Shown piece by piece: positions 12,001-48,970 of a stretch of DNA of 50,350 nt. The stretch's first letter is position 1. Every line of letters starts with the position of its first letter. The DNA comes from a virus: IMG/VR virus record IMGVR_UViG_3300042882_001249, positions 1 through 50,350 of that record; one strand, written 5' to 3'. Under the pieces are notes generated by a model. That model did no database searches and was not told the DNA's origin. It saw only the letters and a program-made list of their open reading frames with translations. A program made the translations under genes and the position numbers.

Positions 12001-14665
12001 GGATGGGTCACTCAGAGATAGTTATTCAGAAAGTACAGTTTCAAGTCTGAATTTTACAAGCACTGATGTGTCCTTTGGAGCTAATACTGATGATTCAGAT
12101 TTGGCCAATGTGTACATGGATGAAGTTCGTCTAACTCGTGGACTACTAAGGTACGATGCAGAAACCTATACCATACCTTCGGGTGGATTCGGAAGAAATA
12201 CTGATCAAGACGTTTATTACAATAACAACGTTTTGTTGTATGGTTTCGAGTCATTGATAAATGAAGTAGAAGATGTTGAAATCAGGTTTGCAGTTCAGGG
12301 AAATCGTAAAGCATTCGCTGATCTCGGTGTAAATCAGAAGGTACTGACTCTGCTCACTGAAAATTTTGCTACTGTGGAAAACCAAACTATTGCCACAGTT
12401 CCTTACACTGTGATCAAAACACTGGACGGCGATGTGGAAAACAGTTATGTTTTGACACTGGATAGTGTATATGATATTTTTGTGGGAATGACTGTTAGTG
12501 GCTACCAGATCGCAGGATGCCCCAAAGTGGTAGAAATCGACACAGACGCCAAAACAGTGAGATTAGATGTTAAACAAACAGTCATCGACAATGGTACCAG
12601 TTTGACATTTATACCAGTAACTGGAAAATCAGATGTACCGGCTATAACAATGGTAGCCCCCAGCATGGTTGGTGAATACAACATAATTGATGCTGGAGTC
12701 CACGCTGATTATAGTTTGGGTGTGGAAGATTTCACATTGGAATTTTGGTATAATGATCCAGTACATCAGCTGGTCAGAGACGAAACAGCCAACTCCACGA
12801 TATATCTCAGCAGTGTTGCTGGTGTGGTTTCTGGAATGAAGATGTTTACCACCACTGGCAATGTTGGAATCAACGTTAACAGTGTAAACACTGAACTGAA
12901 TACTGTGACTTTGGCGAGCACAATCACTGGTTCATTGGGTGATCAATTGAGATTTGTGAAAACCAATGCTGCCAAGACTGTGTTTGTACTGAGTGATTTT
13001 GTTACAGCCAACGTCACTGCTAATGTTTCTGCCAGCACATTGGTTGACGTTACGTCAACAGTTTCTCTCAAAACTGGAATGTATGTAAATGGTACTCAAA
13101 TTGTGGGGTCAGCTACTGAGGCGGTGACTATTGCTGACATTAACTCCAATGGAACTACTATTACGTTAAATCAAGCACAAACACTCACTGTTCCGGCAGA
13201 ATTGAAATTTAATCGCAGTAAATTTAGCCTGACAGGAGTAGTAGAAACCAACACTAGTGGTGAACACCGTGTGGTGTTCTATGTAACTGATGCCACTGGG
13301 GTAAAGCAGACCCTGTTGTCAGAATACCAGGGGTATTCAGCAACTCCAATCTATGTGGCGCTGGATCGTTATGATAGCAAATTCAAGTTATTCATAAATG
13401 GTTCATTAACACAAACAGCCTATGCACCCTGGGATTTTGGTGATGGTATTACTCCGTTGCCTCTGCTGCTCAGCAATACAACAGATCCTTTCTCAGGTAA
13501 GCTGGCTGATTTCAGAATAACCAAAGGCGTTAGCCGTTATGGTTTAAGCACACCTGTAGATACTGCAATTTCAAGTGATTTTGCTGATCAATATCTGGGA
13601 ATCAGATCAGCTGACATCACAGTGGATGGTACTGGTTTCGTCAACAATATCACCAGTGGCAGCACAGAGGAACACATACCAGGCAGACTTTATGATACAC
13701 TAAACATCAGAGTGTTTGCTAAAAATCCAGCAACACCAACCGCAAACGTTGGTATTGGATATCGAATGTTCCAAGACATGTTACAGAATGTGTATTACTA
13801 TGCTATACCAGCCAGCGGAACTACAAGTTTGGCTTCAAATTTAACAGCATACGATGATACGGTATATCTGGTTAGCGTGGCTGGATTCCCAGACACCGAC
13901 CCAGACACCAACAATCGTGGTGTGTTTTTCGTGGCAGGCGAACGAATCAGCTACTTGCACATTGACAGAACAGCCAACACAGTGAGTGGACTGCTCAGAG
14001 GAACACTGGGCACACATGTTCCCCTGATGCATTCATCAGGAACTCGTGTGGAAGTAGCTGGTGTAGCTGAACAATTTCCAGGGTCAGCAGGATCCTACGG
14101 AGTTATTGGAACAGTTAGCTCGTTGGTAACTTCCAGCAATACAGTGTCGTTGGCTACGGTTAACAATGTTTCAGTAGGCATGGCTGTGCAAAATAGTTTG
14201 ATCAGAACAAAGGCAACTGAAACATCAACAATTGGCTCAGTTAGTGTAGAAAATGCCTCTGGGATACTTGCAGGGATGAGCGTGGCTGGAGTATCAACTG
14301 GGATACCCAAGGTAGTCAGCGTGGTGGGTAACTTGGTGACTTTTGACGCCGTTCACACAGTGTTCAATGACACTTTGCTGACGTTCTTTGTTACAGTGGA
14401 CAGTGTGGACACCGTCAACAACACTGTTACATTGAGTTCACTTCAGAGTTTCAACGCCAATGAACAGATCATTTTGGGAGAAATAGTTGCAGACGCAGCT
14501 AAACCGTTTGGCAAAGTCGTTACCAATACATTAACCAATCATAGAAATACTTGGTATACACCTGGTACGGCAACAGCAGCAAACGGTGCTGGTTTAGCAG
14601 CAAGTTCCACAGAAGTTGCACAATTTCTCCTAAATAACCCAGCTCTGTTAAACTCGTTGCCATAA
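2..14665 (+). CDS. Giant multidomain virion structural protein, 5' end outside window
   Basis: The frame is open from base 2, so the GTG at 47 is not a real start; at least 4,887 residues are present. Domains recognised by eye, by nucleotide: FG-GAP-like beta-propeller repeats at about 5370-6330 (FGSSV, YGHSVAI blades); CBM5/12-like short modules (W..Y..G..V.Y...Y.A) near 3815, 7765, 10740 and 11030-11280; a YHYH-type segment ending DGYPIYGPYGY near 10010-10045; two LamG/concanavalin-like domains at about 11750-12190 and 12700-13560 (FTFEFFF, FTLEFWY). A short module of the form VGMxVSGxGVxGxPxV is repeated at least seven times (about 661, 7088, 12440, 12790, 13010, 14110, 14230, 14390). Giant proteins of this kind occur in marine T4-like phages as tail or baseplate-associated virion proteins that probably contact the cell surface. 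The exact position in the virion is inferred. Confidence 0.85.
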   Translation, partial: FCNIYLDQVSDPSTIVFDAVTDRGPRVYLKEYATASDGNCVSVAQGEQNRGTNWCWDNQSRSWIKSSQIKDQIQQKPLFDVFDFNDVSFSNQTVYNSTNFAGSTLFEYKINSTAASDPVLKFGITYRTINNVGDISFLNTFEIDRFNYIDDVELGTSQDTPINTGTAKIVDPCTGQITQYDVWQRVLNNLELYQNIEITGSNLKLNSNINAQLVMGDVRRDINVVLESVNDIQVGMVVSGVGVSGLPRVTAVDTVNKTITLSSLQNILDQTELTFNNVLQYDIPGKLLVKNTPNAYKDKIFVDGTQLYSDLFTVQQMGDIIRISISVDALDPMNIHYQNISAESKLLIKLIANTVLPNAWFDVPTQFEINPYNFRSNEFTLSDLKSHTDALHSNHGHRITPLVTDNSLGNIEHRANPGLIMLHEGFSVLPTLLLTDTRFDIERAIATAGREYEQFKLQFIEASNQVEAIETLTAAAAVDSIFTLLTQNKSADQAWYTSDMVPFNGNDITYIVDDTAQTAYDISDVFENQANNKAVLVYLNGLQLVRGTDYEFDTVSPTVNISRTLRVNDELRIAEFVNTDGSFVPVTPAKLGLGPVYIPEIYIDDTYRTPTRVLQGHDGSITTAFNDYRDQLILELELRIFNNIKLDTDLWNNVIQSRVQPAGKFRELNGTALYSMIEEASISRKYFYDWVANNRVNYANSVYDETDPFTFNYSDSRDRITNQKCLGYWRGIYRDFYDTDRPHTHPWEMLGITKKPSWWESIYGPAPYTGTNLVLWEDLKNGVSTGGNIRSVLGARTTSIVNYENNTTYNLLDAVPADSGGTLLHPIDAYLIGGLITSSAKNPFTFNDNGPAETAWRRSSSYAYAKLNQKILQNPQFMLGTLWDLDNYKPYALIDSVGVFSASYVGFRYLETQFPSINDLKIHTVDTDDAGVPVRCHSILNFVVENLKSQGQNPVILKNAIVNSDVNLVYKLAAFADVDNIQVYAEQNSVQTQGNTVKVPQEDYELLLSESVPIDVASYSGVIISRSANGYKVTGYDRQYPYFIIYPSDVNTTPKQFQVGSQTYGYYTEFLDNPLYIPYDYEFISKQTVVDFLLSYGEHLKRQGFAFESQPEQDRINWLDAAVQFIKWSGYNWSSNNTSGQRLSLVLNPAAGVLKYTPVAGTLQNLMLPDNLLLDENQNIISSRDIDVYRDQDVTYVNNLQPNSTISALRTNIVSYEHKLIVKNQTVFGDLIFNPALGIRQNRLRLVGLKTNDWDGTINSAGYLLMFSSVPEWQPNTDYLQGDVIKYKNRNYTALEPVIGATNFQTEKFSISDVTYQNRLLPSIGAKSLDLERAYDINHKPSISDFTRLRSNALGYVERTWLVNLGLDLNNQTEFYRGWIKEKGSFNAVDKFTAAGQQDLLADFTVSEEYAVKLGDYGATGRTGFVEVSLINDTESNNPVAVEFADGPNSTDLIRVSTTELYKKSSNWTTNFISNTGQLVKNEDRFIDAGPVLPAEIYNKAKSVTVEYSAEQENALTFNSLESLTKTEDVQNLLKNVRYGNWIWIAVDETLTTDNKYNVITWKNSDAKIRQIRKNNSLNTLELYLDQALDIETDQIVVIDINDLSLTVQGAFKVVKNQVNPTADYVSVLSVTSDIVELYNFDTVTYAADLEPKSVYIYETLRYNDIGSASLNRNLDKLYLPKDGKLYVDYNNLGWAVFDFREPYDSGSSNLPDSENQITGAPEGLITTSIAQDDIARWLWLGKADDNKVVVKSFRNTNLGLGVTGDLDTSLATFDPTTSANGERSDTLKLGTEIINLTNGKAAATGTDSSNRGQVYILQASNDGYQVNQIFRGSASGAYYGSSIAASDNGEWLFVGETIPSGAGNVYAYRKFNSSNSSSSWTTVGNASSSYTMSFTPDNLYSIRVKVADRLRIPVAEYTLSGNMITFSTSVNASNISVTQLSEYYQLMQTIADPDAATGGKFGSSVTANSDASTLVVSAPFNGVGKIYVFSHDVEKTFVSTTTATINLGSTVTSVEKVVVKKNGVTQTTGTNYVPVVSGDTTLVFHGNSQPTSGTVIEVDMMQYDLAQTITGETTDTEYGHSVAINGNWLSVGVPKVTNQVGSVTISNHGRMELRSLNSEISNTITIDQDDLRPLPNNEYVRVNNWLVSAGTSGAISSVSISGTAGELSVSSGNYYQGQAIVVSGTLTGTGSITGYTNPKTYYIAAVNSGVSIVITDTYANAISGVSSLTTTSGTTTGLTFTLQACVDNLVTNVNNLSDFTGVTAVKNLFDTVTFTIDSTKHNTGIVTLDNVAVLRNVNSTYGLVQNINNFDIKSNRLGSTVKWITDGVLGVVENYTEFLESTQTTFDNAFNIVTTVGLAFENSLVLTLNSVFGIRTGYQMIGDGVTGSPVVIGVDAGSNTISVNITQQGLGAGTVLTFVDPGRTDTAASSKFDSGTTLFYDREAQNTQRLLLYQLLRTGRNALGADVDTAQLTRVKTIQYDKTSTPNIFFTGSLYRLWVGDGLSNDEYNNVFVYTNNNLLKGWTLNRQQQELLEPRSIFRAWIYDSRTQEKAVDLDVVDIANGLLPGAIAQHIDYISVVDPASYGIPVWRSGYTYEVGSRVIYNSVVYTANELNNTLFFNSDQWTANTAQVSNTGSKYWGAAQVGETWFVTSKLRSVLYEQGELADRISNYNRWFSDTEIVVREWTASAVPPAEYSNTDGFVDPAAAYVFNPVNNTYYFWVTNKNTVGNKHAISAADISLGLVDIQGTGLPMISPATNNSVILYNVKNFVDSAEYILHIDYVIADHNNRLHSEYQLLTEDNSLGWLNTPIYYKMVDSLSGIDQNSQEVPDNNLNAEDRYGVLLRPRQTMFRDREKALKIYFETINSNLRTVIISNMNTLDNLKLQQDYPAVTEYQFRVPDRETLLILNTNDYAENTQVLVEKDRTALFDGWNLVKLVNSEWEVVNSQFYNLNGYWKYVDWQSPEYQNKPADYTINHVGYLNSIVPVAGETVEILDNGDRKRAVYLVEADSSFTPLFMQDGTIEFLDIIYTLTGSDETGFDSTIGFDNDQAQVIRLVLDALNNHVLVDRLCFVADRAFFAVLRYAIQENRNLDWLFQTSFINVKHRVKNLNRQTNFRSDDEQFVRDFIEENKPFHSRLRDYINSYDLLDQAQVAVSDFDLPALYDEVWYKAQFAGSGGRLKANQAGYFLEGYTGLNLVDNILYISGSGLANHAMGTWPNTSKLSAQAQNWVFALNQYPLQRATKYPVNPDSEIGIAINGVPFYSIVGRFKDRLVNANDLSEEEIYTENIAETNGYAGPDAGNGYLTDNDAYVYRMDPVLLYTKNSAQHSPILGFALDGYPIYGPYGYANSNGTGGIIRNTSSYTLKSELRLVQESIQNGTKYASLGSPTGVYTEDWQYVPGAGTLDQHNGRFVITPEYPYGTYAYFVTVDENNNPVYPYIIGPTFAGVPTGLRIEYQGQSSVPVYDNGRYTMPSSQDLAVNDWSLRSPSWSFYNDYKRFLQSPYRNWFDNYTYNLVRLDLADAGKGYTSEPTIVISGGGGSGATASAAITSSGQIKDSDFIINIGTGYTGMPTITLVGGQNVPAWSNTVTYSSGTVVSYTPAGASTFYYESLSGVPAGTSLSNTLYWVELPPNNSKVPRSGVLVPVLENNLIRSFDISMKFDRVKGRVETHTLDKLYLAGDIVRHQINQKFYITDSNLVSASANQDLYNAVNWNILNSYNTNDVVENSENGLLYKATTSVVPGIAITNTSYWVRLTYWRAMSETEIVESDAATRITAFYTPANNMVTSDLKQLLSGADFAGTLVDGYEFTQTHPVPTGALADTDDQEIDNVSLMAQFDAAHYFGTVFTNKHRIQGTRSGSFGASNIISVGDEDNNIVYTIPSDTNPLFTAAVARYIKVNTNTGAGNSPDLAELACGTQDFTFEFFFRIQTLDQTQTLVDNFNSTPDNGFRIYVSNTNELRCDYYNASTTLRQQLNAGETLRDIWYHVALERKANTMSLYLDGSLRDSYSESTVSSLNFTSTDVSFGANTDDSDLANVYMDEVRLTRGLLRYDAETYTIPSGGFGRNTDQDVYYNNNVLLYGFESLINEVEDVEIRFAVQGNRKAFADLGVNQKVLTLLTENFATVENQTIATVPYTVIKTLDGDVENSYVLTLDSVYDIFVGMTVSGYQIAGCPKVVEIDTDAKTVRLDVKQTVIDNGTSLTFIPVTGKSDVPAITMVAPSMVGEYNIIDAGVHADYSLGVEDFTLEFWYNDPVHQLVRDETANSTIYLSSVAGVVSGMKMFTTTGNVGINVNSVNTELNTVTLASTITGSLGDQLRFVKTNAAKTVFVLSDFVTANVTANVSASTLVDVTSTVSLKTGMYVNGTQIVGSATEAVTIADINSNGTTITLNQAQTLTVPAELKFNRSKFSLTGVVETNTSGEHRVVFYVTDATGVKQTLLSEYQGYSATPIYVALDRYDSKFKLFINGSLTQTAYAPWDFGDGITPLPLLLSNTTDPFSGKLADFRITKGVSRYGLSTPVDTAISSDFADQYLGIRSADITVDGTGFVNNITSGSTEEHIPGRLYDTLNIRVFAKNPATPTANVGIGYRMFQDMLQNVYYYAIPASGTTSLASNLTAYDDTVYLVSVAGFPDTDPDTNNRGVFFVAGERISYLHIDRTANTVSGLLRGTLGTHVPLMHSSGTRVEVAGVAEQFPGSAGSYGVIGTVSSLVTSSNTVSLATVNNVSVGMAVQNSLIRTKATETSTIGSVSVENASGILAGMSVAGVSTGIPKVVSVVGNLVTFDAVHTVFNDTLLTFFVTVDSVDTVNNTVTLSSLQSFNANEQIILGEIVADAAKPFGKVVTNTLTNHRNTWYTPGTATAANGAGLAASSTEVAQFLLNNPALLNSLP

Positions 14666-20879: not shown

Positions 20880-21042
20880 AATGGGTTTGAAGGTTGCATG
20901 TATTGCATTATGCTGGAGTTAGGTCTGCTGCAACGAAAGAAAAGTTGATGCACCCGTGACTGACGAGATACACTTGATTTTCGCCAGAAACGCTCTTTAA
21001 AACCGAGCGGTAAGAAAAGGGACACATTTGTGTCCCTTTCTT
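20880..21042 (+). ncRNA. Candidate small RNA between late promoter and terminator
   Basis: This stretch has no convincing gene (an ATG at 20881 gives only 13 codons). It is bounded by an exact late promoter box and a terminator hairpin. Inside are complementary segments: GTTGCA near 20892 with TGCAAC near 20930, and CGCTC (20991-20995) with GAGCG (21005-21009). It could equally be the 3' untranslated region of the oxygenase gene. I found no match to a known RNA class. Confidence 0.25.
21016..21042. terminator. Bidirectional hairpin terminator beside outer tmRNA-derived repeat
   Basis: AAAGGGACAC and GTGTCCCTTT form a 10-bp stem with a 4-nt loop. T-rich flanks exist on both strands (TTTCTT on +, TTTTCTT on -). 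On the - strand it directly follows the second copy of the tmRNA pseudoknot repeat, like the terminator at 21711-21743 after the first copy. Confidence 0.75.
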
Positions 21043-21083
21043 GATGAGCATTCTGTTTCCAAGGGCTCATCTAACTCATTCGG
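21042..21083 (-). repeat. 42-bp direct repeat, distal copy of tmRNA pseudoknot segment
   Basis: On the - strand it reads CCGAATGAG, then GATGAGC, CCTTGG and GCTCATC. It differs from the copy at 21743-21784 by one base; that change replaces a C-G-type pair by G-U in the putative pseudoknot, so pairing is kept. It lies outside the homing endonuclease and is followed by its own terminator hairpin. Confidence 0.9.
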
Positions 21084-21094
21084 GTGTATGATGC

Positions 21095-21102
21095 CATAAA
21101 TA
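21095..21102 (+). promoter_or_regulatory. T4-late-type promoter box CATAAATA
   Basis: The box, in the context GCCATAAATAA, matches the one at 14661. It lies 62 bp before the endonuclease ATG at 21165, inside the segment delimited by the 42-bp repeats, so the mobile gene may carry its own late promoter. Confidence 0.45.
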
Positions 21103-21164
21103 AAAATGTGGTTCGCGGTGCTCTAACACCCAACCACTCTACGGGCATTGGAGGCCCAGCAGCA

Positions 21165-21788
21165 ATGAATATTTATTATGTCTATCAGTACCTGCGATCT
21201 AAAGATTCAGATATTGCACCAGCAGGAACCCCTTATTACATAGGCAAAGGCAAACAGCAACGAGCATGGGATAGTAAACACACAATTTCATTACCATCTG
21301 ATAAATCATTGATTGTACTTGTAGCTGAACAATTAACAGAATCTGAGGCATTTGAGCTTGAGAAATTATTAATTGAACAATGGGGGCGAGTTGATATTGG
21401 CACAGGAATTTTGCGCAATAAGACAAATGGTGGTGAAGGGTCGTCTGGATTAGTTAGATCAAAAGAATCAAATGAAAAAACATCTAAATCATTAACAGGT
21501 CGCAAAAGAGGAAGATCAAAAGCATTCGGTACAAAACGAGGACCACTAAGTGAAGAGCGCAAAAATAAACTCAGAGAATCATTAAAAGGTAAGAAAAAGA
21601 AAAATCCAAGATCAGCTGAGTATAGAGAAAAACAACGTCAATCACAACTTGGTCATCCTGTTACTGAAGAAGTGCGAAGAAAAATGAGCGAATCTGCTAA
21701 ATTAAGATGGCAAAGAAAAAAGGCAGAAGCAATGCTTCTGCCTGATGAGCATTCTGTTTCCGAGGGCTCATCTAACTCATTCGGTTAG
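21165..21788 (+). CDS. GIY-YIG homing endonuclease with NUMOD3 repeats, antisense to tmRNA 3' end
   Basis: A 207-aa protein. The start at 21165 is chosen because GGAGG lies 10 bases upstream and the protein opens directly with the GIY-YIG core (NIYYVYQYL, then PYYIGKG at residues 25-31). The catalytic region continues with an RAWDSKH segment, FELEKLLIEQWG (conserved Glu) and NKTNGGEG (conserved Asn). The C-terminal half has four NUMOD3-like DNA-binding units (SNEKTSKSLTGRK, SEERKNKLRESLKG, REKQRQSQLGHP, EEVRRKMSESA). The last 17 residues (LLPDEHS onward) are encoded by the antisense of the tmRNA pseudoknot and terminator, and the TAG stop overlaps the tmRNA tag stop in antisense. It is AT-rich compared with its neighbours. 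Such enzymes cut alleles lacking the insertion and spread by repair. Confidence 0.85.
   Translation: MNIYYVYQYLRSKDSDIAPAGTPYYIGKGKQQRAWDSKHTISLPSDKSLIVLVAEQLTESEAFELEKLLIEQWGRVDIGTGILRNKTNGGEGSSGLVRSKESNEKTSKSLTGRKRGRSKAFGTKRGPLSEERKNKLRESLKGKKKKNPRSAEYREKQRQSQLGHPVTEEVRRKMSESAKLRWQRKKAEAMLLPDEHSVSEGSSNSFG
21711..21743 (-). terminator. Intrinsic terminator of the tmRNA gene
   Basis: AGGCAGAAGC and GCTTCTGCCT form a perfect 10-bp stem with a 3-nt loop, followed on the - strand by TTTTTTCTTT. It directly follows the tmRNA pseudoknot and lies inside the antisense endonuclease coding region. Confidence 0.85.
21743..21784 (-). repeat. 42-bp direct repeat, proximal copy within the tmRNA
   Basis: This copy directly follows the tag stop codon of the tmRNA. 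It forms an H-type pseudoknot in the order A-B-A'-B': CCGA, GATGAGC, TCGG, GCTCATC. The other copy is at 21042-21083. Confidence 0.9.
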
Positions 21789-22034
21789 GCTACTGCTAGC
21801 CCAGCTTCCAAGTTACCTTCGAAGCTGTATTCACCGAGATCATACCATTCGTTTGAATTGGCATTTATTAGTTCACGCTGTTACGGTAGTCGTCTGCCGG
21901 ATAGATTCCCTCTCACTAGTCCTGCCAATCGATACTTTTCAGGCCCACTCAATACACTGATATAAAATGTATTCAGTGGACCTGCCGGCATCGCAGCCGG
22001 GTCTTGCTCAGTCGTTGCTTAAGATCATCACCTA
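21744..22034 (-). ncRNA. ssrA: Circularly permuted (two-piece) transfer-messenger RNA
   Basis: tmRNA with SmpB rescues stalled ribosomes by adding a degradation tag. Reading the - strand: the acceptor piece comes first, with T-arm CCGGC/GCCGG at 22000-21985 and 3' strand CAGGUCCA ending at 21977 (discriminator A; CCA not encoded). A 30-nt intervening segment follows (21976-21947; hairpin AAUACA/UGUAUU). The coding piece starts at 21946 with GGGCCUG, which pairs completely with CAGGUCC and has the G3-U70 alanine identity pair, followed by a D-like segment GUAUCGAUUGG. The tag reading frame runs from GCC at 21862 to TAA at 21785: 25 residues, beginning ANSNEW and ending AGLAVA. A pseudoknot and terminator close the gene. 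Oddities: the T-loop has six bases (UGCGAU) rather than seven, and helix H2 was only partly resolved. The 5' limit is approximate. Confidence 0.85.
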
Positions 22035-22040
22035 TCAAAC

Positions 22041-22292
22041 TTATTTATTTTGCAAAATCTGCTCAATTAACTTTGCTCTTGTTTGTATCTCTGCTAGTTC
22101 TGTCTCCAAATGCTGAACAACATTTTCTTCAGTTATACGTTCGCCACCATATGTATACCATACAACTGTATTAGGACCCAGCAAAGCGATTGTGGTTTTG
22201 TGAGTGTTATCGTCCGAACCTTTGACCCAACAATGATGTTTGCTTTGACGGGGCAAAGTAAACACCGCATCGAAATCAAAGCACCTGATCAT
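22041..22292 (-). CDS. 83-aa hypothetical protein
   Basis: The protein starts MIRCFDFDAVFTLPR. Its start overlaps the end of the DUF2061-like gene by 17 bp, so the two are likely co-translated. The last about 30 residues (ENVVQHLETELAEIQTRAKL) are predicted to be helical, perhaps a coiled coil. I do not recognise the family. The tmRNA begins directly after its stop codon. Confidence 0.6.
   Translation of the reverse strand: MIRCFDFDAVFTLPRQSKHHCWVKGSDDNTHKTTIALLGPNTVVWYTYGGERITEENVVQHLETELAEIQTRAKLIEQILQNK
22042..22049 (-). promoter_or_regulatory. Possible late promoter box AATAAATA for the tmRNA
   Basis: AATAAATA on the - strand overlaps the stop codon of the 83-aa gene and lies just upstream of the tmRNA acceptor piece. 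Transcription would begin near 22036. Read-through from the promoter at 22472-22500 is an alternative. Confidence 0.35.
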
Positions 22293-22461
22293 TCCGACCC
22301 CACTGAATCTTCAACCAAATTCTTTCATGTGCATAGTGAACAATGGTCATTGCCAAATTCATCCATATGGCTGATTCAATCCCAGTCCACACAGCAGTAA
22401 CAATGGTTGCTGTAACTCGCCAGCTGGCTGATCTTGCTAATGTTCGTCTATGCTGTTCCAT
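22276..22461 (-). CDS. DUF2061-like small membrane protein
   Basis: A 61-aa protein with the DUF2061 pattern: RTLARSASWRVTATIVTAVW, a hydrophobic helix with polar N-cap, and the C-terminal HERIWLKIQWG. The family consists of small inner-membrane proteins of unknown function and occurs in bacteria and large phages. The ATG lies only 10 bases after a consensus TATAAT, so the mRNA may be nearly leaderless. It is first in a short unit with the 83-aa gene and perhaps the tmRNA. Confidence 0.75.
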   Translation of the reverse strand: MEQHRRTLARSASWRVTATIVTAVWTGIESAIWMNLAMTIVHYAHERIWLKIQWGRNDQVL

Positions 22462-22511: not shown

Positions 22512-22537
22512 AAAAGGCTATGTTTCCATAGCCTTTT
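22512..22537 (-). terminator. Terminator after the receptor-like gene
   Basis: AAAAGGCTATG and CATAGCCTTTT form a perfect 11-bp stem with a GAAA tetraloop on the - strand, ending in a T-tract. It lies 11 bp after the stop of the 1,077-aa gene. Confidence 0.85.
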
Positions 22538-22548
22538 ATTTTGCCTAA

Positions 22549-25500
22549 TTAGAAGCTCAGTCGCAAACTCAATTGAATCTGTCGACTGGTTCCCAAGCCC
22601 ACTGTGCGATCCAGTGTGCTGTTGATTACACCAAATGTTGCTCCCTGAGTGGCTGCACCAAATGCTTGTCCGGGCTGCACGGTATTTGCCTGCCCGGGCT
22701 TGCTGGGAATTGCGTTGGGCAATTGAGCAGGCGGATTGGCAAAGTTAGCACGGTTGAACAAGTTATAAACTTCAGCTCGAGCAGTTAGTTGAAAATGTTC
22801 AGTAATTCGAATCTTTCTCTGCACGGTGAAATCAGTTTGGAAAAGAGCCGGACCACGCAAACTGTATCGGGAAGCGTTGCCGAATGTGCCTGGCAGTGGA
22901 GTGCTAAACGCAGCACTGTTCAAGTACAATGTGCCATTGCTCTTTACATAAGGGCTGACACCTGCCACGTAGTCCGGACGGCGAATCTGTCGACTCTGTC
23001 CGCCACCGGGTACGTTTACTACAGCCACACTGTGTACCACTCCGTTTTCTATTACCGGATTGTTGTAGTACATACCAGTGCGCTGATCTTTGTAGATTAC
23101 GTCATTTCGCACAATAAGTGGATCCAATGGCAATCCAGTGCGAGTATTAATAATACTACCCACTTGCCAATTCTTTAGTAAACCGCGAGAACCTTCGTAT
23201 AACATCACAGTGTTGAGATTGTGACGAATATCAGCCGCATTGTTGCCATAATCATATCGCCAGTTATAGGGATTGGCCACCGTGACTGTTTCGTTTGACC
23301 CACCACTGCTGCCGATTGAACGTCCCCAAGTATAGCTCACACCGTAATTAAAACCATTGCGAGTTTTTCGATTCAGTGTGGCTTGCAGAGCATTGTAGTG
23401 ATCATTGCCACCACTGGTTTTTACGTCAACTTCAGCCCAACGATCGCCAAACTGTCGAGTTACCACAGCCGCGCCAGTTGTGACATTGGTGCCCACGTTG
23501 GTAATCAAGTTGCCCAGTGTGCGAATAAACAAGTTGCGACCCAAACTGCCCACATATGCCACAGTCACAGTGTTGCTTCTGATCTGCTGCTGAACGCTGG
23601 TAGTATAGCTGTACACCGTTTCCGGCACACGATAGCCAGGATCATACGCACGCGGCTGGAATTTAAGTGTGGGACTGTTGATGTTGTAGTTGGCCACAAT
23701 TGCTTGTGTGTTAATGGGATAAGCAACTCCAGTTAGTGTGCTGCTCACACGATCTGATTCAAACGGCTGGATTAGATCTTCCGGCTGACCCGGACCATAA
23801 TAGATCCCCGATCCCACCCGAACCACAGTTTTGCCTTGCCATCGACGCGGACTCCAAGTCGAACTAAGCCTGGGACCAAAGTTAGTGCGGCTGCTACGAT
23901 AAATAGGCAGCGCCGGATCCATCAGCTGACCAGTGACTGGATTCCAAGCCACAGCTAGGTTACGCTTTTCTTTAAACACACTGTAGTATTCATATCGCAT
24001 GCCATAGTTCACAGTGATGTTGTCACGCAACTTCCATTCGTCCTGCACATATCCAATCAAAAAGTGTTGATTGAGTTCACGCTCACCGATTGCGTTGCGA
24101 TTGAACGGACTGGGCGCACTCACATCACCTAAAAATTGCACCTGTAGTGGACGATTATTGACCAAATCCTCTACGTTGGCAAAACTGTAGGTTGTGCCAC
24201 CCAGGCGATCAGTGTACAACCGAACCCAACGAGCTTCTCCGCCCATTTTGAAATTGTGGCTGCCCTGAATCCAGCTGAAGTTATCAATCAGTGCTGTGCT
24301 GGTATTGGTATAAGGCTGACCACGTCCATTGGTTGCACTGTTGCTGCGAACCAGTCCGCCAGCAGTAGCAAAGCCGGTGCCTGCGCCCTGGCTGCTGATG
24401 CCTGCAATTGCAATGCCACCTGTGAGATTTACACTGATATCAGCAGGATTAAAACCGTTGACAATGGGTGCTCTGCCCCAGGCACGAGTCTTGTAAGCAT
24501 TAATGCCCAGCTTGGCTTCATTGATTTTGGTTGGGCTAACGATCCACTGAGTGTTGAACACTGCATTTTGCGGTACTGCGGTAACATCAATACCGTTGCC
24601 AGTCACGCCCAGTGGTTGAACACTGTGGCCCTGATCTCGGAAGAAACGAGCGTACACATTGAATCGTTCAGTTAGTCTGCCGTCAATGCGTGATCCAAAG
24701 CTGGCTTCGTCCACAGACTGTGAGCGATCCAGCGCCACAACATCTGCATTGGGATCAGTGGTTGCAATATTGCCCACTGGATACAAACTCATCAGTGGCT
24801 GCACACTGGCCACAGCTCTGGCTCGTGCGCTCACACTGGGCACAGCTTCTCTAAATGGAATGCTCTGACGCTGACGCAGATTTTCATTGCTCGCAAACCA
24901 AAACCAACGATCTCGCACAATGGCTCCACCTGCGCTGGCTCCAAACTGATTCAGTCTCAGTGGATTGGTTTTTGCACCATCAAAAAAGTTGCGAGCATCC
25001 AGTGCATTGTTGCGCAGATATTCAAACACACTGCCGTGCAACTGATTGCCACCACTTTTGGTGACCACTGTGATCTGTCCACCAGTGCCTGTGCCATATT
25101 CAGCCGGATAGTTGTTGCTTTCCACACGGAATTCTTGCACATTTTCCATGCTGCTCTGCAGGCGGAAAAAGCTGCTGATCTGCCCGTTGAGATTGCCTGG
25201 GCTGCTGTCAATAATCGCACTGCCTTCTACACCATCATAACGGATAGCATTCTGTTGATTGCTGCGACCGCTAAAACGGATGTTGTCATAACTGCCACCA
25301 CCGCCGGTATTTGCACCTGGTGCCAGCAGATACAGCTGACTGAGCTGACGTCCGTTCAGCGGCAAGTTTTCCACTTCGCGTTCGCTAACGTTCACCCCCA
25401 TTTTGGCACTGGCAGTGTCTACTGCCACCACGTCGCCACCTTCCACCACAATTTCAGTTTTGATCATCTGTGGGACCAAAATAAAATTCACAGCAATCTG

Positions 25501-25782
25501 CTGACTCACTGACAGTTTGATTCCGCTGCGTTGCATGGCAGCAAATCCTGGTGCGGCTACCTTAATGGTGTAATTGGCTGCACTTAAATTGGTTAAAGTA
25601 TAGCGTCCTTCAGCGTCGCTGGTTGCCTCTCTCACGGTGCCAGTTTTTTCATTTTGCACAGTCACCATGGCGCCTGCTAAAATGGCATGTTCGCTGTCCT
25701 GAATCACACCCACGATAGCAGAAGTGTCACTCTGTGACCACAGTGCCATCACACACATAAGATGTAGAAAAAAATTTTTCAT
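22549..25782 (-). CDS. TonB-dependent-receptor-like outer-membrane protein with carboxypeptidase-regulatory domain
   Basis: A full-length 1,077-aa outer-membrane protein. Signal peptide: MKNFFLHLMCVMALWSQS. Residues about 20-110 form a CarboxypepD_reg-like beta-sandwich (GVIQDSEHAILAGAMVTVQN, DAEGRYTLTNL, YTIKVAAPGF). A plug domain follows (EREVENLPLNGRQLSQL, then NAIRYDGVEG and GQITVVTKSGGNQLHGSVFEY). The rest is barrel, with paired strands and loops and a terminal QLSLRLSF whose final Phe is the BAM recognition signal. The architecture matches Oar/CirA-like proteins that are greatly expanded in Acidobacteriota. It has an AGAGGA site before the ATG and its own terminator, so it is embedded in phage gene order and is not obviously a contig join. 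Such a gene is very unusual in a phage. Possible roles: altered host nutrient uptake, receptor masking or superinfection exclusion. All are inference. Confidence 0.85.
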   Translation of the reverse strand: MKNFFLHLMCVMALWSQSDTSAIVGVIQDSEHAILAGAMVTVQNEKTGTVREATSDAEGRYTLTNLSAANYTIKVAAPGFAAMQRSGIKLSVSQQIAVNFILVPQMIKTEIVVEGGDVVAVDTASAKMGVNVSEREVENLPLNGRQLSQLYLLAPGANTGGGGSYDNIRFSGRSNQQNAIRYDGVEGSAIIDSSPGNLNGQISSFFRLQSSMENVQEFRVESNNYPAEYGTGTGGQITVVTKSGGNQLHGSVFEYLRNNALDARNFFDGAKTNPLRLNQFGASAGGAIVRDRWFWFASNENLRQRQSIPFREAVPSVSARARAVASVQPLMSLYPVGNIATTDPNADVVALDRSQSVDEASFGSRIDGRLTERFNVYARFFRDQGHSVQPLGVTGNGIDVTAVPQNAVFNTQWIVSPTKINEAKLGINAYKTRAWGRAPIVNGFNPADISVNLTGGIAIAGISSQGAGTGFATAGGLVRSNSATNGRGQPYTNTSTALIDNFSWIQGSHNFKMGGEARWVRLYTDRLGGTTYSFANVEDLVNNRPLQVQFLGDVSAPSPFNRNAIGERELNQHFLIGYVQDEWKLRDNITVNYGMRYEYYSVFKEKRNLAVAWNPVTGQLMDPALPIYRSSRTNFGPRLSSTWSPRRWQGKTVVRVGSGIYYGPGQPEDLIQPFESDRVSSTLTGVAYPINTQAIVANYNINSPTLKFQPRAYDPGYRVPETVYSYTTSVQQQIRSNTVTVAYVGSLGRNLFIRTLGNLITNVGTNVTTGAAVVTRQFGDRWAEVDVKTSGGNDHYNALQATLNRKTRNGFNYGVSYTWGRSIGSSGGSNETVTVANPYNWRYDYGNNAADIRHNLNTVMLYEGSRGLLKNWQVGSIINTRTGLPLDPLIVRNDVIYKDQRTGMYYNNPVIENGVVHSVAVVNVPGGGQSRQIRRPDYVAGVSPYVKSNGTLYLNSAAFSTPLPGTFGNASRYSLRGPALFQTDFTVQRKIRITEHFQLTARAEVYNLFNRANFANPPAQLPNAIPSKPGQANTVQPGQAFGAATQGATFGVINSTLDRTVGLGTSRQIQLSLRLSF

Positions 25783-25869
25783 TCTTTGATTATTCCTCTT
25801 TGTTACTTACACTTTTCAAATTTACAAATAAATTACAAGTACAACACAATTTAGTTACATTTAATCAGA

Positions 25870-26103
25870 TTAAATGTTGACAATATTATTCCAGAAAGCT
25901 GCTCTGATCAACTGTTCTTGCTCAGCAGAAGTTAATGCACCATTACCGCACCGATGAGCATAACTCCACATTTCCACATTGGATAACATCTCTTGTATCT
26001 TGGCAGTGTTTCCCACTTGATAAACCAGGCATAGCTGATGCAAAAATTTTTCCATGTAGAACACTTTTTCGGATAAGGTAATTTTTGGATATTTGGTTTT
26101 CAT
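25870..26103 (-). CDS. 77-aa hypothetical protein, paralogue of the gene at 27642
   Basis: The protein is predicted to be helical and contains VGNTAKIQEMLSNVEMWSYA, then HRCGNGALTSAEQEQLI and AFW. The same pattern, WSYAHRCGNG plus LI..AFW, is in the 72-aa protein at 27642-27860, so the two are paralogues. The ATG at 26103 is preferred over the longer frame because it overlaps the upstream stop (TTATGA). Small proteins with this core occur in other T4-like phages; function unknown. Confidence 0.7.
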   Translation of the reverse strand: MKTKYPKITLSEKVFYMEKFLHQLCLVYQVGNTAKIQEMLSNVEMWSYAHRCGNGALTSAEQEQLIRAAFWNNIVNI

Positions 26104-26477
26104 AAAATACAACTCAGATTCTGACCCGGCGCTGGCATCAGTTTAAAGAACAGATCCACCCTGCGATTTGGCTCCACCCTGATATCGCGATATCGAGTAG
26201 TTCTCCAACGATCTCCTGATACAAACACGCCATACACCCCGGGCTCTAGGTCAGTGAACTTGAAAATCCCATCTGTGTTGGTTTTGTCGCAATAAGTATT
26301 TGCCTGCGGTAGATTGTTCAAATAAATCTGATAGCATATTTCCTGTTTGGGCACTGGCTTTCGATTGCAATCTAACAACTGACCCCGAATTTCTCCAGTT
26401 TCAGTCGCGGTTAGCAATTTAAAAATCAAAAATCCTTTGGCTGTAAAAGCAGAAGTTAGTGTGAATTTTGAAATCAT
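26100..26477 (-). CDS. Small protein with carboxypeptidase-regulatory-like (Cna-B type) fold
   Basis: A 125-aa protein. After a hydrophobic N-terminus (FTAKGFLIFKLLT), residues about 30-115 show a beta-sandwich pattern: GEIRGQLLDCNRKPVPKQEI, then TNTDGIFKFTDLEPGVYGVF and RRVDLFFKL. This is the same fold type as the N-terminal domain of the nearby receptor-like protein. There are four Cys in the mature part. It lies between RNA ligase and the 77-aa paralogue with overlapping ends, so it is part of that operon. It may be exported, but the N-terminus is not a clear signal peptide. Confidence 0.65.
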   Translation of the reverse strand: MISKFTLTSAFTAKGFLIFKLLTATETGEIRGQLLDCNRKPVPKQEICYQIYLNNLPQANTYCDKTNTDGIFKFTDLEPGVYGVFVSGDRWRTTRYRDIRVEPNRRVDLFFKLMPAPGQNLSCIL

Positions 26478-26485
26478 AATGACCT

Positions 26486-27652
26486 TTACTGTTCAGATGG
26501 ATTAACTGTGTTCTTTAATTTGAGTTTCAGTACATTTAAAAGATAATCGTCTGTTTGATTCAGAATCCACGCACGAGCATTCTGAAAATGACCATTCATC
26601 AAGGAAAACATTGCGCCCTGAATATCACTAGGAACCTGAGATTTAACGTATGCAGCAAAAGACTTACGGCTTGCGGCTATTTCTTCCCTGGTACCCTGGA
26701 ACACAATATCCGTACCATGTGGTTTTGCATTCTGAAAATGCTGATCAATTACCTCAGCTAACTGGTCAATTCGCTGATTCACCATGGCAAATCGATCTTT
26801 GATTTCGTCAAAATAAACAACAGCTTCGTCAGATTCACCCTGACGAATCAGATCCAGGATACCACGCAACCCTAGACTAAATCGAGAATAGTGCAAAGCC
26901 ACATACTTGGGGCTCTTGATTTTAACCCGGTTGAACTGTTGATCCACCACCACAAAGCCTTCCTGCACCAAAGGATCCAGTTGTTCAGCTGCCTGAGTGG
27001 CTGCTTGGGCTGAATTGAAATCAAAATGGCGCACACGCTGGAACCCTTCCCAAATTCTGGGATCATCCAGGTGAACCTCAACACCGTCAGCGTCACGGGC
27101 ACTCAACAACGTTACCTCGGCGGTATTGTTGCGAGTAATCACGTGGTTCTGGGGACTAACCAGTTCCCAGCAATAGGTCCAACCCGGGATCGGATTTTGC
27201 GTATTATACTTTTGATTGAAGGTTTGCCAGAAAAGATCACGGAAAGTGATGGGCCAATCGCCCACTTGGCAATTTGCACCGGGGGTTTGCTTGGTGCTCA
27301 CCATCCAGTTGCCAGCATAGTGGCACAAAATTATCAAAGATCCGTCCAACTTCTCCTGCACTCGGGCAGTGGACCAATCAATTTCAGCAGCGCCAGGTTC
27401 ACCCCAATTGAAAAACCGCAGAAAGGGGAAAGCAACCACATTCCAATTTTGGTCTTGGTCCAAAATCAAACCACGGCTCTCACGAACAATGGGGTGAGTC
27501 TTGTTTGCATAAGATTCGGTCATATGGTAAGCAAACTGCACCAGGTTGGGATGACTGGTGTCACGGGTGTAACGGATGCCCAGAGCACGGATTTCTTCTA
27601 GACCCGTAGTAGACCCACGCAATAATTTTTGAATATGCAACTCAGCGTTCAT
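26486..27652 (-). CDS. rnlA: T4 Rnl1-type RNA ligase
   Basis: A 388-aa protein, close to T4 Rnl1 (374 aa). Nucleotidyltransferase motifs: I, EKLDGS with Lys101 as the AMP acceptor; upstream RFFNWGE; IV, EGFVVVD; V, RVKIKSPKYV. It joins 5'-phosphate and 3'-OH RNA ends. With the polynucleotide kinase/phosphatase at 38273 it makes the T4 tRNA-repair pair that undoes cleavage by host anticodon nucleases such as PrrC. The start overlaps the 72-aa gene by 11 bp with a GGAGG site, so it is second in the operon from the promoter at 27866-27895. Confidence 0.9.
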   Translation of the reverse strand: MNAELHIQKLLRGSTTGLEEIRALGIRYTRDTSHPNLVQFAYHMTESYANKTHPIVRESRGLILDQDQNWNVVAFPFLRFFNWGEPGAAEIDWSTARVQEKLDGSLIILCHYAGNWMVSTKQTPGANCQVGDWPITFRDLFWQTFNQKYNTQNPIPGWTYCWELVSPQNHVITRNNTAEVTLLSARDADGVEVHLDDPRIWEGFQRVRHFDFNSAQAATQAAEQLDPLVQEGFVVVDQQFNRVKIKSPKYVALHYSRFSLGLRGILDLIRQGESDEAVVYFDEIKDRFAMVNQRIDQLAEVIDQHFQNAKPHGTDIVFQGTREEIAASRKSFAAYVKSQVPSDIQGAMFSLMNGHFQNARAWILNQTDDYLLNVLKLKLKNTVNPSEQ

Positions 27653-27860
27653 TGATCCTCCAGAAAGCCTTTTTGATTAACTCATTTTGCTGACGATCAG
27701 TTAAGGTGCCATTACCGCAACGATGAGCATAACTCCAAACATCAATGCGATCCAGCATTTCGTTAATTTTTTGAGTATTGCCAACCATACGAGACAATGA
27801 CAGAGAATGTAGAAGACATTCATACTCCTGTATTTTTTGGCGTTGTGTTGGCTTCTTCAT
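27642..27860 (-). CDS. 72-aa hypothetical protein, paralogue of the gene at 25870
   Basis: Predicted helical protein with VGNTQKINEMLDRIDVWSYA and HRCGNGTLTDRQQNELIKKAFW. The same core is found in the protein at 25870-26103, which lies at the other end of the RNA-ligase operon. It is the first gene after an early promoter, and its end is coupled to the ligase start. Function unknown. Confidence 0.7.
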   Translation of the reverse strand: MKKPTQRQKIQEYECLLHSLSLSRMVGNTQKINEMLDRIDVWSYAHRCGNGTLTDRQQNELIKKAFWRINER

Positions 27861-46143: not shown

Positions 46144-47023
46144 TTACTTAGACCAACTATTTCCCCACAGATCCACATGCAGTCGAGGACTGTAGTAGTA
46201 ACCACGACGCATGGCTTCTTCAGCAATATTGAACTTGTTTCCGTTGTAGATAACATCCACACCACCCACTGGCATCACATAAACAGGTCCCACGAAACCA
46301 GCAGCACGATATTCTGCCACTGCTTGATCAGCTTCAGCAAAATGTTCAGGAGAATCCACTACGAACTTCAGATAAGCAAATCCGTAATTTTCATAGGAAG
46401 CCACAACGTCAGGTTTGATAGCATCACTCCAACTCTCACCACTTGCGCTGAGTTTGGGACTTACGCTAAACGTGAAACACGAGTCGCCTTCAAACTGACC
46501 AGTGATAAACCTGCCCAAGTCCTGATGAATTTTTTGTGTACCGTTGGTTTCAAAAGTCACATTGCGTAATCCATGCGTGTTTTCATTGTCCAAAATCGCA
46601 GGGTACATACTCTGCCAGCCCAGCAAAGGTTCACCGCCTGTGATCACCAAATGTACATCGTTGCCATTGGGTTGAATCCATGTGTTATTGGGTAACAGTT
46701 CGTTGAACCGCTCTCGCAATTGTTCTATTGAGTAATCTGGGCTGAGGTGGCGGAATTCTGGGTAGATACTGGCATAAGTATCACAACCAGTACTAACCAG
46801 TGGCAAGTCATCAAACACTTTAAACTGATCAATATTTTTGATAACATCGGCTACTTCGGGATTATACTTGTCAGTTACTGGAGTACTGCACCCAAATGAC
46901 TTGCAACGAAAATTGCATCCAAAAGTTCGCATGAAGATGCTGGGCACTCCAACGTATCGGCCTTCACCTTGTAGACTAAAAAAAAAAAATTTCCGAGACC
47001 TTAATAGTTCGGTTATTACGCAT
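46144..47023 (-). CDS. queE: 7-carboxy-7-deazaguanine synthase (radical SAM), frame broken by a T12 run
   Basis: The continuous frame from 46947 is 267 aa and carries the cluster motif MRTFGCNFRCKSFGC, GGEPLLGWQ, NVTFETNGTQK and VMPVGGVD. QueE converts 6-carboxytetrahydropterin to CDG in 7-deazaguanine synthesis. The conserved N-terminus lies upstream: ATG 47023 with AAAGGA, reading MRNNRTIKVSEIF and then, after the T-run, SLQGEGRYVGVPSIF. The 12-T run (46978-46989) puts these in different frames; 11 or 8 T would join them (the family motif is EIFFSLQGEG). So the gene is either slippage-regulated, mutated or misread. It lies in a group with queD. Confidence 0.85.
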
Positions 47024-47065
47024 ATTAAATTTTTTCCTTTAGTTATGTTTCTGCTTACTATAATA

Positions 47066-47071
47066 ATTATA
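47066..47071 (-). promoter_or_regulatory. Possible -10 box TATAAT upstream of queE
   Basis: TTTGCTATAAT resembles the -10 region of the other early promoters, but I find no matching -35 at 16-18 nt, so this is tentative. Confidence 0.35.
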
Positions 47072-47411
47072 GCAAATTTTTAAGTTCTAAAAATTTTTTT
47101 TCATCCAAAATTACATACAAATCTTGGACCAAATGCCATTCGTATATATTGATGTTTTTGATTTTACCAGTCTTAACATGTTGACATTTGAACAGATATT
47201 TTTTGTTACCTAGCGACAAATGCACATTTTTGTCAAACTGATCTTGTGGGACCTGTGATCGAATCCCTGTTTGTTTATTGATTATATTGATCTTACCAGC
47301 ACAAGGTCCAGCGTAACGTTCTTTGTTGTTTAGAACTTGATCTCTTGAAATTTGTACATATTGACCGGTTGACTTATCTAAAACTGTAGTGAGATTTTTA
47401 GTAACTCCCAC
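47067..47411 (-). CDS. 114-aa protein with endonuclease-associated repeat, perhaps a remnant
   Basis: It has two similar units (TTVLDKSTGQYVQISRDQVL and INIINKQTGIRSQVPQDQFD) of a kind found as accessory repeats in phage homing endonucleases. There is no nuclease core. The frame is open upstream to the previous gene's stop but the only start is GTG 47411, so the 5' part may be lost. It is AT-rich. It is probably a decayed mobile gene or a solo domain. Confidence 0.5.
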   Translation of the reverse strand: MGVTKNLTTVLDKSTGQYVQISRDQVLNNKERYAGPCAGKINIINKQTGIRSQVPQDQFDKNVHLSLGNKKYLFKCQHVKTGKIKNINIYEWHLVQDLYVILDEKKFLELKNLL

Positions 47412-47457
47412 ATATCTTACCCCATCAAAAGGTGAAGGAGAATTTTTAATAAGAACG

Positions 47458-47694
47458 TCAAAAATGTTTAGTTGTTAACAAAAGGCCTAGCAATAGTAGC
47501 ACAATGAAGAAAGCGTTTAGAAGATAAAGGCTGGGCTCGCGCATGCGCCACCCAGCCCAAATCCATCCTATACTACCCAGTATGCCCACTAGTTTGTTTA
47601 ACGGAGTAACATCAAACGCAGTAAGTGTGACACCCACCGCAGTGAGAATAGTACCTAACCATTTAACATAGTTGTCTAGTTGGCTTTGTTTCAT
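47458..47694 (-). CDS. Small membrane protein, three hydrophobic segments
   Basis: A 78-aa protein with helices at about residues 12-30 (WLGTILTAVGVTLTAF), 34-50 (LVGILGSIGWIWAGW) and 55-75 (LYLLNAFFIVLLLLGLLLTT). Like small membrane proteins next to queD or lysis genes in marine T4-like phages; a holin role is possible but unsupported. It starts 2 bp after the queD stop. Confidence 0.65.
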   Translation of the reverse strand: MKQSQLDNYVKWLGTILTAVGVTLTAFDVTPLNKLVGILGSIGWIWAGWRMREPSLYLLNAFFIVLLLLGLLLTTKHF

Positions 47695-47695
47695 A

Positions 47696-48121
47696 TCACA
47701 CCGTTACAGTGGCTTTGCACTTGCGTGTTTCTTCAATGTCCACAGCAATCAATCTCACACCAGTGTCCTTCAGTTGTTCCGGGCCCACTGTTTCAATCAG
47801 ATACTGTCCCATGTTTTCAGCTGTAGGATTAAACGGCACAATCACGGTGCCCTGAGGGTCCAGTTTCTTGAGTTCCAGACTCCAGGGATCCTGTTGCCAC
47901 ACAAGGAACTTGTGATCCCACTGTAGTTCTAGCCATTCACACAGATAATTTTTGATTGCAGAGAAATCCATTACCCGGCCCACTGTGTCCAATTTATCAG
48001 CTTCCACTGTGAAGTGGATACGATAGTTGTGGCCATGTAAGTGGGCGCATTTGGATTCATGGCCATATACTCGATGGCCGGTGGAAAAGTCGTGATAACG
48101 ACTTGCAGTAATTTTAGGCAT
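47696..48121 (-). CDS. queD: 6-carboxytetrahydropterin synthase
   Basis: A 141-aa protein of the QueD/PTPS family. Zinc ligands are His16 (FSTGHRV) and His29/His31 (HLHGHNY); Cys25 is the likely catalytic base. Also present: GRVMDFSAIKNYL, LQWDHKFL and the C-terminal DIEETRKCKATV. It turns dihydroneopterin triphosphate into the QueE substrate. Neither GTP cyclohydrolase nor QueC is in this window, so the route depends on other phage genes or the host. In phages these enzymes often feed 7-deazaguanine DNA modification that blocks restriction. TAGGAGAC precedes the ATG, and a structured leader lies upstream. Confidence 0.92.
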   Translation of the reverse strand: MPKITASRYHDFSTGHRVYGHESKCAHLHGHNYRIHFTVEADKLDTVGRVMDFSAIKNYLCEWLELQWDHKFLVWQQDPWSLELKKLDPQGTVIVPFNPTAENMGQYLIETVGPEQLKDTGVRLIAVDIEETRKCKATVTV

Positions 48122-48153
48122 TAGTTGAATGTCTCCTATGTTAATTGTAACAC

Positions 48154-48197
48154 GAGCAGCGGAATTTTTTAAGAGGGACGATGCCCAAAGTCCTCTT
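48154..48197 (-). promoter_or_regulatory. Possible preQ1-I-like pseudoknot in the queD leader
   Basis: On the - strand: AAGAGGAC pairs with GUCC-C-UCUU (48197-48190 with 48179-48171), followed by AAAAAA; loop GGGCA (48186-48182) can pair with UGCUC (48158-48154). This is an H-type pseudoknot with an A-rich third loop, the topology of preQ1-I riboswitches, placed before a 7-deazaguanine gene. The loop sequence does not match the consensus closely. Confidence 0.35.
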
Positions 48198-48202
48198 GTC
48201 TT

Positions 48203-48970
48203 TTACTTATCTTTTTCAATAATACACACAGGAATTGGTTGCATCTTGTGCTGATTCGCAGTGTGAAAGCGATTGTAAATAGTTAGCACTTCCTGTTGCC
48301 GAGGCGTGGGATTCTGAGGATTGGGATTTTCCATGGCCCACTCCAGTTCATCATAACTGGCGCAAAGTTGATCGCCGTCAGTGCGGCCATCATCCCACAA
48401 CCCATCGGTGGGAGCGGCATCAATGATTCCCTGGTTCAATCCCAGCTCACGTGCTAGGGCATATACTTCACTCTTGTAGAGATCTCCAATGGGGCTGATA
48501 TCCACGCCACCGTCACCCCACTTGGTGTAGAACCCCACACCAAAGTCTTCTACTCGATTACCCGTGCCCACCACAATACCTTGTTTGCTCTGAGCAATCT
48601 GATATAGAGTGATCATCCTGAAGCGGCTACGACTGTTGGCAAAGGCCAGATTGCTGGTAAATTCTGACCCCAAAGATTGCTCAACTTCTTTAGAAAAAGA
48701 ATCAAAGGCGTCAGTGAGGTTGATGTATAACCCAGTAACATTGGGATATCTGTCAGTTAACCAACTGATATGAGCTTGGGCTCTGAGATTTTCCACGACG
48801 TTTTGACGAATGGGCATACTCACGGCATAGACGGGCACTCCGGTCTGTGCGCACAAGGCGCTGACCACTGCACTGTCGATGCCTCCACTAACTCCCACGA
48901 CCAGACTTTTTAGTTGATGTTTGTTGAGGTAGTCCTGAATCCAGGTCACAATCTGTGTTTGAATATTCAT
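48203..48970 (-). CDS. nadE: NH3-dependent NAD synthetase
   Basis: A 255-aa protein with the PP-loop VGVSGGIDSAVVS (residues 25-37), GTGNRVEDFGVGFYTKWGDG, DISPIGDLYKSEVYALAREL and DGLWDDGRTDGDQ. It amidates nicotinate adenine dinucleotide to NAD with ATP and ammonia. No glutaminase domain is fused. The length is typical of the short family. In a phage it may restore NAD depleted by infection or by NAD-consuming defence systems (inference). The start lies 1 bp after the preceding stop. Confidence 0.92.
   Translation of the reverse strand: MNIQTQIVTWIQDYLNKHQLKSLVVGVSGGIDSAVVSALCAQTGVPVYAVSMPIRQNVVENLRAQAHISWLTDRYPNVTGLYINLTDAFDSFSKEVEQSLGSEFTSNLAFANSRSRFRMITLYQIAQSKQGIVVGTGNRVEDFGVGFYTKWGDGGVDISPIGDLYKSEVYALARELGLNQGIIDAAPTDGLWDDGRTDGDQLCASYDELEWAMENPNPQNPTPRQQEVLTIYNRFHTANQHKMQPIPVCIIEKDK

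Follow-up and report, generated by a model that had tools for sequence, protein, structure and literature searches.

A complete TonB-dependent transporter gene in T4-like phages, probably tied to the phosphate-starvation response of the host

The transporter gene and its phage setting

The DNA analysed here (the window) comprises an entire IMG/VR record of 50,350 bp, in which an intact open reading frame, unbroken from its ATG start to the C-terminal ...LRLSF and stop codon, encodes a TonB-dependent transporter (TBDR; Table 1). The N-terminal sequence, MKNFFLHLMCVMALWSQ, is hydrophobic and signal-peptide-like on inspection. Pfam matched PF13620 (CarboxypepD_reg) at residues 23-102 (E 2e-18) and PF25183 (OMP_b-brl_4) up to residue 1070 (E 9e-131), and the Pfam Plug model PF07715 gave no score, the plug being seen in the structural model and in the fold matches. 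The AlphaFold model, of moderate confidence (pLDDT 70, pTM 0.68), comprised an N-terminal helix, a beta-sandwich, a plug-like region and long barrel strands, and its best 50 Foldseek matches in the PDB were all TonB-dependent transporters (PirA, FusA, FepA, SusC and others), with E-values reaching 6.5e-23. The barrel is of the 22-stranded type, the strand number being inexact, and ends in the aromatic residue Phe. KTEIVVEGG, between the extension and the plug, is TonB-box-like and conserved among the phage copies. PHROGs and NCBIfam offered no specific name for the protein, which, judged by its domains and predicted fold, is an Oar-type TonB-dependent transporter. The initial annotation had described a full-length receptor with plug and terminal Phe and proposed structure prediction as a check, and both the domain matches and the predicted fold bear it out. 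The terminator that it assigned to the gene is no more than plausible: 3' of the stop codon there is a hairpin whose arms measure 11 bp, but terminator-like hairpins around the gene were as a class not above shuffle expectation.

Table 1 Positions of the transporter gene, its parts and other features of the window.
Feature	Positions	Strand	Basis
TBDR gene, 1077 aa	22549..25782	(-)	ORF, Pfam, structure prediction, Foldseek
Signal-peptide-like N-terminus, residues 1-17	25732..25782	(-)	Sequence inspection; helix in model
N-terminal extension (CarboxypepD_reg), residues about 21-102	25477..25722	(-)	PF13620, E 2e-18
Plug-like domain, residues about 128-245, best-conserved part	25048..25401	(-)	Model
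Beta-barrel, residues about 246-1077, final Phe	22552..25047	(-)	PF25183, model, PDB fold matches
Hairpin 3' of stop codon, possible terminator	22512..22537	(-)	11-pair stem
Pho-box-like direct repeat TGTAAT-N5-TGTAA, 40 bp 5' of ATG	25822..25837	(-)	Repeat search, motif model
Stretch with GIY-YIG-like NUMOD3 gene	21042..22460		
70-80-aa protein family, first copy	25870..26112	(-)	
Small CarboxypepD_reg protein, 125 aa	26100..26477	(-)	PF13620 just above cut-off
70-80-aa protein family, second copy	27642..27860	(-)	
Secreted phage protein	27939..29003	(-)	Signal-like N-terminus
QueE-like, QueD-like and NAD synthase genes	46144..48970	(-)	

The contig encodes a giant virion protein of 4872 amino acids, an Rnl1-type RNA ligase, thymidylate synthase, DHFR, PNK, a primase, an exonuclease, QueE-like and QueD-like proteins and an NAD synthase. 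The genes for the QueE-like radical SAM protein, the PTPS/QueD-like protein and the NAD synthase (weakly QueC-like too) are clustered and, by sequence, possibly form a 7-deazaguanine pathway. The stretch with the NUMOD3 gene, which separates the tail-fibre genes from the TBDR gene, differs from that of the near-identical strain L002 and seems recombinogenic.

A survey of related phage contigs, which the initial annotation had recommended, found the gene in eight other viral records, giving nine IMG/VR records at identities of 100%, 85% and 72%. In 3300031857_000635 the gene is 100% identical (rounded), within a 13.5-kb alignment at 99.7% that covers the gene and its upstream side. The 85% identical copy in 3300005805_000306 is syntenic, with the order ATPase, VWA, DHFR, thyA, secreted protein, Rnl1, CarboxypepD_reg protein, small protein and TBDR retained. 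In six more records, the longest of 89 and 124 kb, the gene is 72-73% identical and flanked by an Hsp20-like gene and a lysozyme-/DNA polymerase-/RecA-/DnaB-like cluster, named by sequence reading; the nine records display three flanking arrangements. The TBDR family was not found in 46 related phage records picked by their ATPase gene, many of which are fragments. Among INPHARED phages, the sole TBDR match was partial (28% identity, on a 6-kb fecal fragment), and there was no near match to the giant virion gene.

Several neighbouring genes are shared with these relatives. A family of 70-80-aa proteins with the motif SYAHRxGNG...LI.KAFW lies directly beside the TBDR gene in both main phage groups (L003, 9677-9928; L038, about 13137-13346), with two copies in the window. 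The 125-aa protein, a second and small CarboxypepD_reg protein, is about 55% conserved in L003. The secreted protein (also L003, 6796-7860; L038, 5123-6142; and L121) is 75%, 49% and about 41% conserved in related phages; its model, of low confidence, consists of beta-sandwiches only, and its best match in 250 Bryobacterales genomes is only 30% identical.

The secreted protein bears on whether the TBDR might export a phage or host protein, of which this one would be an example, in the manner of Oar and PopC. Myxococcus xanthus Oar, a cellular protein, shares the PF13620 extension, plug and barrel and is required for secretion of the protease PopC (PMC6434023), and the secreted phage protein co-occurs in five of the eight other TBDR records. 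Three TBDR records nevertheless lack the secreted protein, and the L046 and L047 fragments contain it without a TBDR, so that it was rejected as an obligatory partner and an exporter is very unlikely.

Origin, selection and exchange

In a maximum-likelihood tree, six phage rows formed one clade (100/100) nested in the Bryobacterales (Acidobacteriota) orthologue group, as sister to the cellular copies L155 and L156 (99/99); the initial annotation had proposed a search against Acidobacteriota proteins. With scoring limited to the top three candidates in each genome, 70 of 250 Bryobacterales genomes contained a TBDR match with E < 1e-150, usually one each, the best match being 57% identical. The phylogeny is best explained by a single acquisition from a Bryobacterales lineage before the sampled phages diverged. 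The hosts of the phages are probably Acidobacteriota; a host search by DNA matches in 257 genomes returned short or low-identity matches only and no convincing spacer.

Comparison of the window with L003 gave a dN of 0.106 and a dS of 1.19 for the TBDR gene, and none of eight further genes examined in this pair was as well conserved. With dN/dS of about 0.09-0.11, the phage TBDR is under strong purifying selection. The tree, the nine records and the selection together indicate a host-derived gene fixed in phage genomes. Between L038 and L041 (9901-13133), the gene and about 45 bp upstream share 95.2% DNA identity, whereas the genes beside it share only 30-82% of amino acids. Because the high identity is confined to the TBDR gene amid diverged flanks, we attribute it to a recent and clean exchange of this single gene.

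These data also bear on the concern, raised in the initial annotation, that the locus might be an assembly chimera or host DNA within the contig. The nearest cellular homologues are indeed acidobacterial, but the closest one found is no nearer than the 57% match above, homologues at 85% and 72% reside in phages and are under codon-level selection, and the nine viral records derive from different samples with three flanking arrangements. For the gene family, independent assemblies and divergent phages carrying the TBDR refute chimerism and contamination, the probability of which for the contig itself we regard as negligible.

Conservation is uneven along the protein. The plug of the window TBDR is 97% identical to that of L003, 90% to that of L038 and 85% to that of the cellular L155, and is the best-conserved region; the barrel is only 56% identical to that of L155. 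This pattern fits a transporter opened by TonB and poorly fits a mere surface decoy. It weighs against receptor replacement or superinfection exclusion, whereby the phage TBDR would displace, dilute or mask a host TBDR that the phage itself or its competitors use as receptor. TBDRs such as FhuA commonly serve as phage receptors, some phages are known to make proteins that inactivate them (PMC11436027), and an arms race would fit the transfer of the gene from phage to phage. The most conserved part is nevertheless the plug and not the surface, even in comparison with cells, a dN/dS of about 0.1 carries no diversifying signal, and exclusion leaves unexplained the Pho-type promoter and the pho/pst neighbours of the orthologues described below; we consider it unlikely.

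Pho-box-like promoter repeats and pho/pst neighbourhoods

The neighbourhoods of 22 cellular TBDR copies were read. The three nearest to the phage TBDR by identity (L155, L156 and L157) all stand head-to-head with one gene for a response regulator and one for a histidine kinase. Among NCBIfam models the regulator scored best against PhoB and the kinase against PnpS, with PhoR among its three best, and no score reached the equivalog cut-off. The L174 copy is divergent to pstSCAB, and so is the L007 copy, although a porin-like gene separates the two; the L164 copy adjoins pstS (PstS model above cut-off) and the L169 copy adjoins a PhoR-like kinase. Overall, phoRB-like or pst genes adjoin the TBDR gene in 7 of the 22 copies; about 15 are not beside pho/pst genes, many of them lying near rpsG-fusA or atp genes. 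Around other TBDRs (18 loci, 341 kb), neither pstS nor pstB was found, and PhoB/PhoR matches were only 30-36% identical. Next to the phage TBDR gene, a search of the neighbours showed neither a phosphatase gene nor a pst gene.

An unsupervised, de novo motif search on the 22 cellular orthologue promoters yielded AAtATTcATCgatCTGTAACgG, a direct repeat spaced 11 bp, which is the geometry of the PhoB box recognised by E. coli PhoB. With near relatives kept out of training and a threshold of 10 bits, the motif was present in 21/22 orthologue promoters versus 5/149 other ORFs (p 8e-14) and in 8 of 11 independent pstS promoters (p 2e-5), p-values that disregard shared ancestry beyond the clusters removed. 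The three background matches above 11 bits corresponded to two phoB genes and one pstS, and among promoters of unrelated TBDRs the motif occurred in 1/15. Taken with the neighbourhoods, this places the cellular counterpart of the phage gene in the predicted Pho regulon. A transporter for another nutrient, such as an oligosaccharide or a metal chelate, might merely be co-regulated in some hosts; TBDR ligands are hard to predict by sequence and the majority of cellular copies are not beside pho/pst genes, but the motif is found in the orthologue promoters regardless of their neighbours, and we view this alternative as unlikely.

Pho-box-like sites of differing strength also precede phage TBDR genes. 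The window repeat, TGTAATttattTGTAAA, is the sole TGTAA-N6-TGTAA in the entire 50 kb, where 0.24 would be expected by chance; L003 carries this repeat too, at the corresponding position 5' of its TBDR gene. When a 22-bp motif model trained on cells only was applied to the phages, the TBDR promoters of L038 (18.1 bits) and L003 (13.8 bits) were the top of all positions in their loci, and that of L041 scored 13.0 bits, with 1/27 other ORF upstreams as high. The window site is weak by this model (7.9 bits; 6/52 other ORF upstreams as high).

Three related jumbo phage records (L213, L214 and L215; 286-364 kb), found by their ATPase gene, encode PstS-like proteins that share 40-43% identity with PstS of Bryobacterales. 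Each pstS gene is preceded by a TTGTAAC-N4-TTGTAAT repeat (TTGTAACaaaaTTGTAAT or TTGTAACacgcTTGTAAT), and no other site in the locus resembles a Pho box more closely. The TBDR family was not found in these three records and, conversely, no PstS-like protein was found in nine records with the TBDR or the secreted protein, which are fragmentary contigs. The TBDR and the phage pstS may be alternative solutions.

A candidate phosphorus-acquisition gene at the outer membrane

Plug conservation combined with the Pho link makes phosphorus acquisition the leading explanation, and the phage TBDR is probably an auxiliary gene of this kind, under control of the host PhoR-PhoB system and acting at the outer membrane. 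We likewise favour the view that some T4-like phages carry and exchange a complete TBDR tied to the phosphate-starvation regulator of the host, through which phosphorus compounds would be imported during infection. Under phosphorus starvation, the Pho-box-like repeat 5' of the gene would be a binding site for activated PhoB of the host; the product would be exported via Sec, enter the outer membrane through BAM and draw its energy from host TonB-ExbBD. The Pho link speaks to regulation and not to substrate; the ligand would most likely be organic or polymeric phosphorus too large for porins, which would feed phage DNA synthesis. PhoB binding, expression, substrate and benefit to the phage are steps that we infer. 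Among the functions offered in the initial annotation, nutrient uptake gains support and is narrowed to phosphorus stress by the orthologue neighbours and promoters; masking or replacing the receptor and excluding competing phages, for which no positive evidence was found, are less likely.

The closest parallel is the pstS of cyanophages (Kyanoviridae), controlled by host PhoBR (PMC10976474). Both are host-derived genes of T4-like phages with a role in phosphorus acquisition, a probable one for the TBDR, but the cyanophage Pho boxes are recognised by the host regulator whereas regulation of the TBDR is predicted, PstS is a periplasmic binding protein and not an outer-membrane TonB-dependent transporter, and the hosts of the TBDR phages are probably Acidobacteriota. 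Soil phages carry 17 kinds of phosphorus-acquisition genes (Pst, Pit, Phn, Ugp, PhoD, PPa, PhoBRU and others; PMC10987575), which have purifying selection and, probably, phosphorus supply in common with the TBDR; that catalogue makes no mention of TonB. Low-phosphate-induced TBDRs and PusCD are described in Flavobacterium, one TBDR being an orphan with PF13620 (PMC8115612); with their Pho-type response and the PF13620 orphan they are a possible parallel to the phage gene, but they are cellular and from Bacteroidetes.

In the literature searched (open-licence papers), no full-length phage TBDR was found. The only phage 'TonB-dependent receptor' met there, that of pelagiphage Skadi-1 (PMC10504331, OP131302), was discarded as a precedent, its annotated genes of 447 bp and 249 bp being too short for plug and barrel.

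By its sequence features, the phage TBDR would represent a Pho-controlled type of phosphorus-acquisition gene at a new cellular site. The phage genes of this kind known so far act in the periplasm or cytoplasm or as secreted enzymes, and a complete TBDR would extend the takeover of host metabolism by phages to the cell surface, by means of the very protein class that phages use as receptors. The analysis also connects a large subfamily of acidobacterial TBDRs with phosphate stress, puts forward a Pho-box consensus for Bryobacterales and gives a clue to which hosts a group of uncultured T4-like phages may infect.
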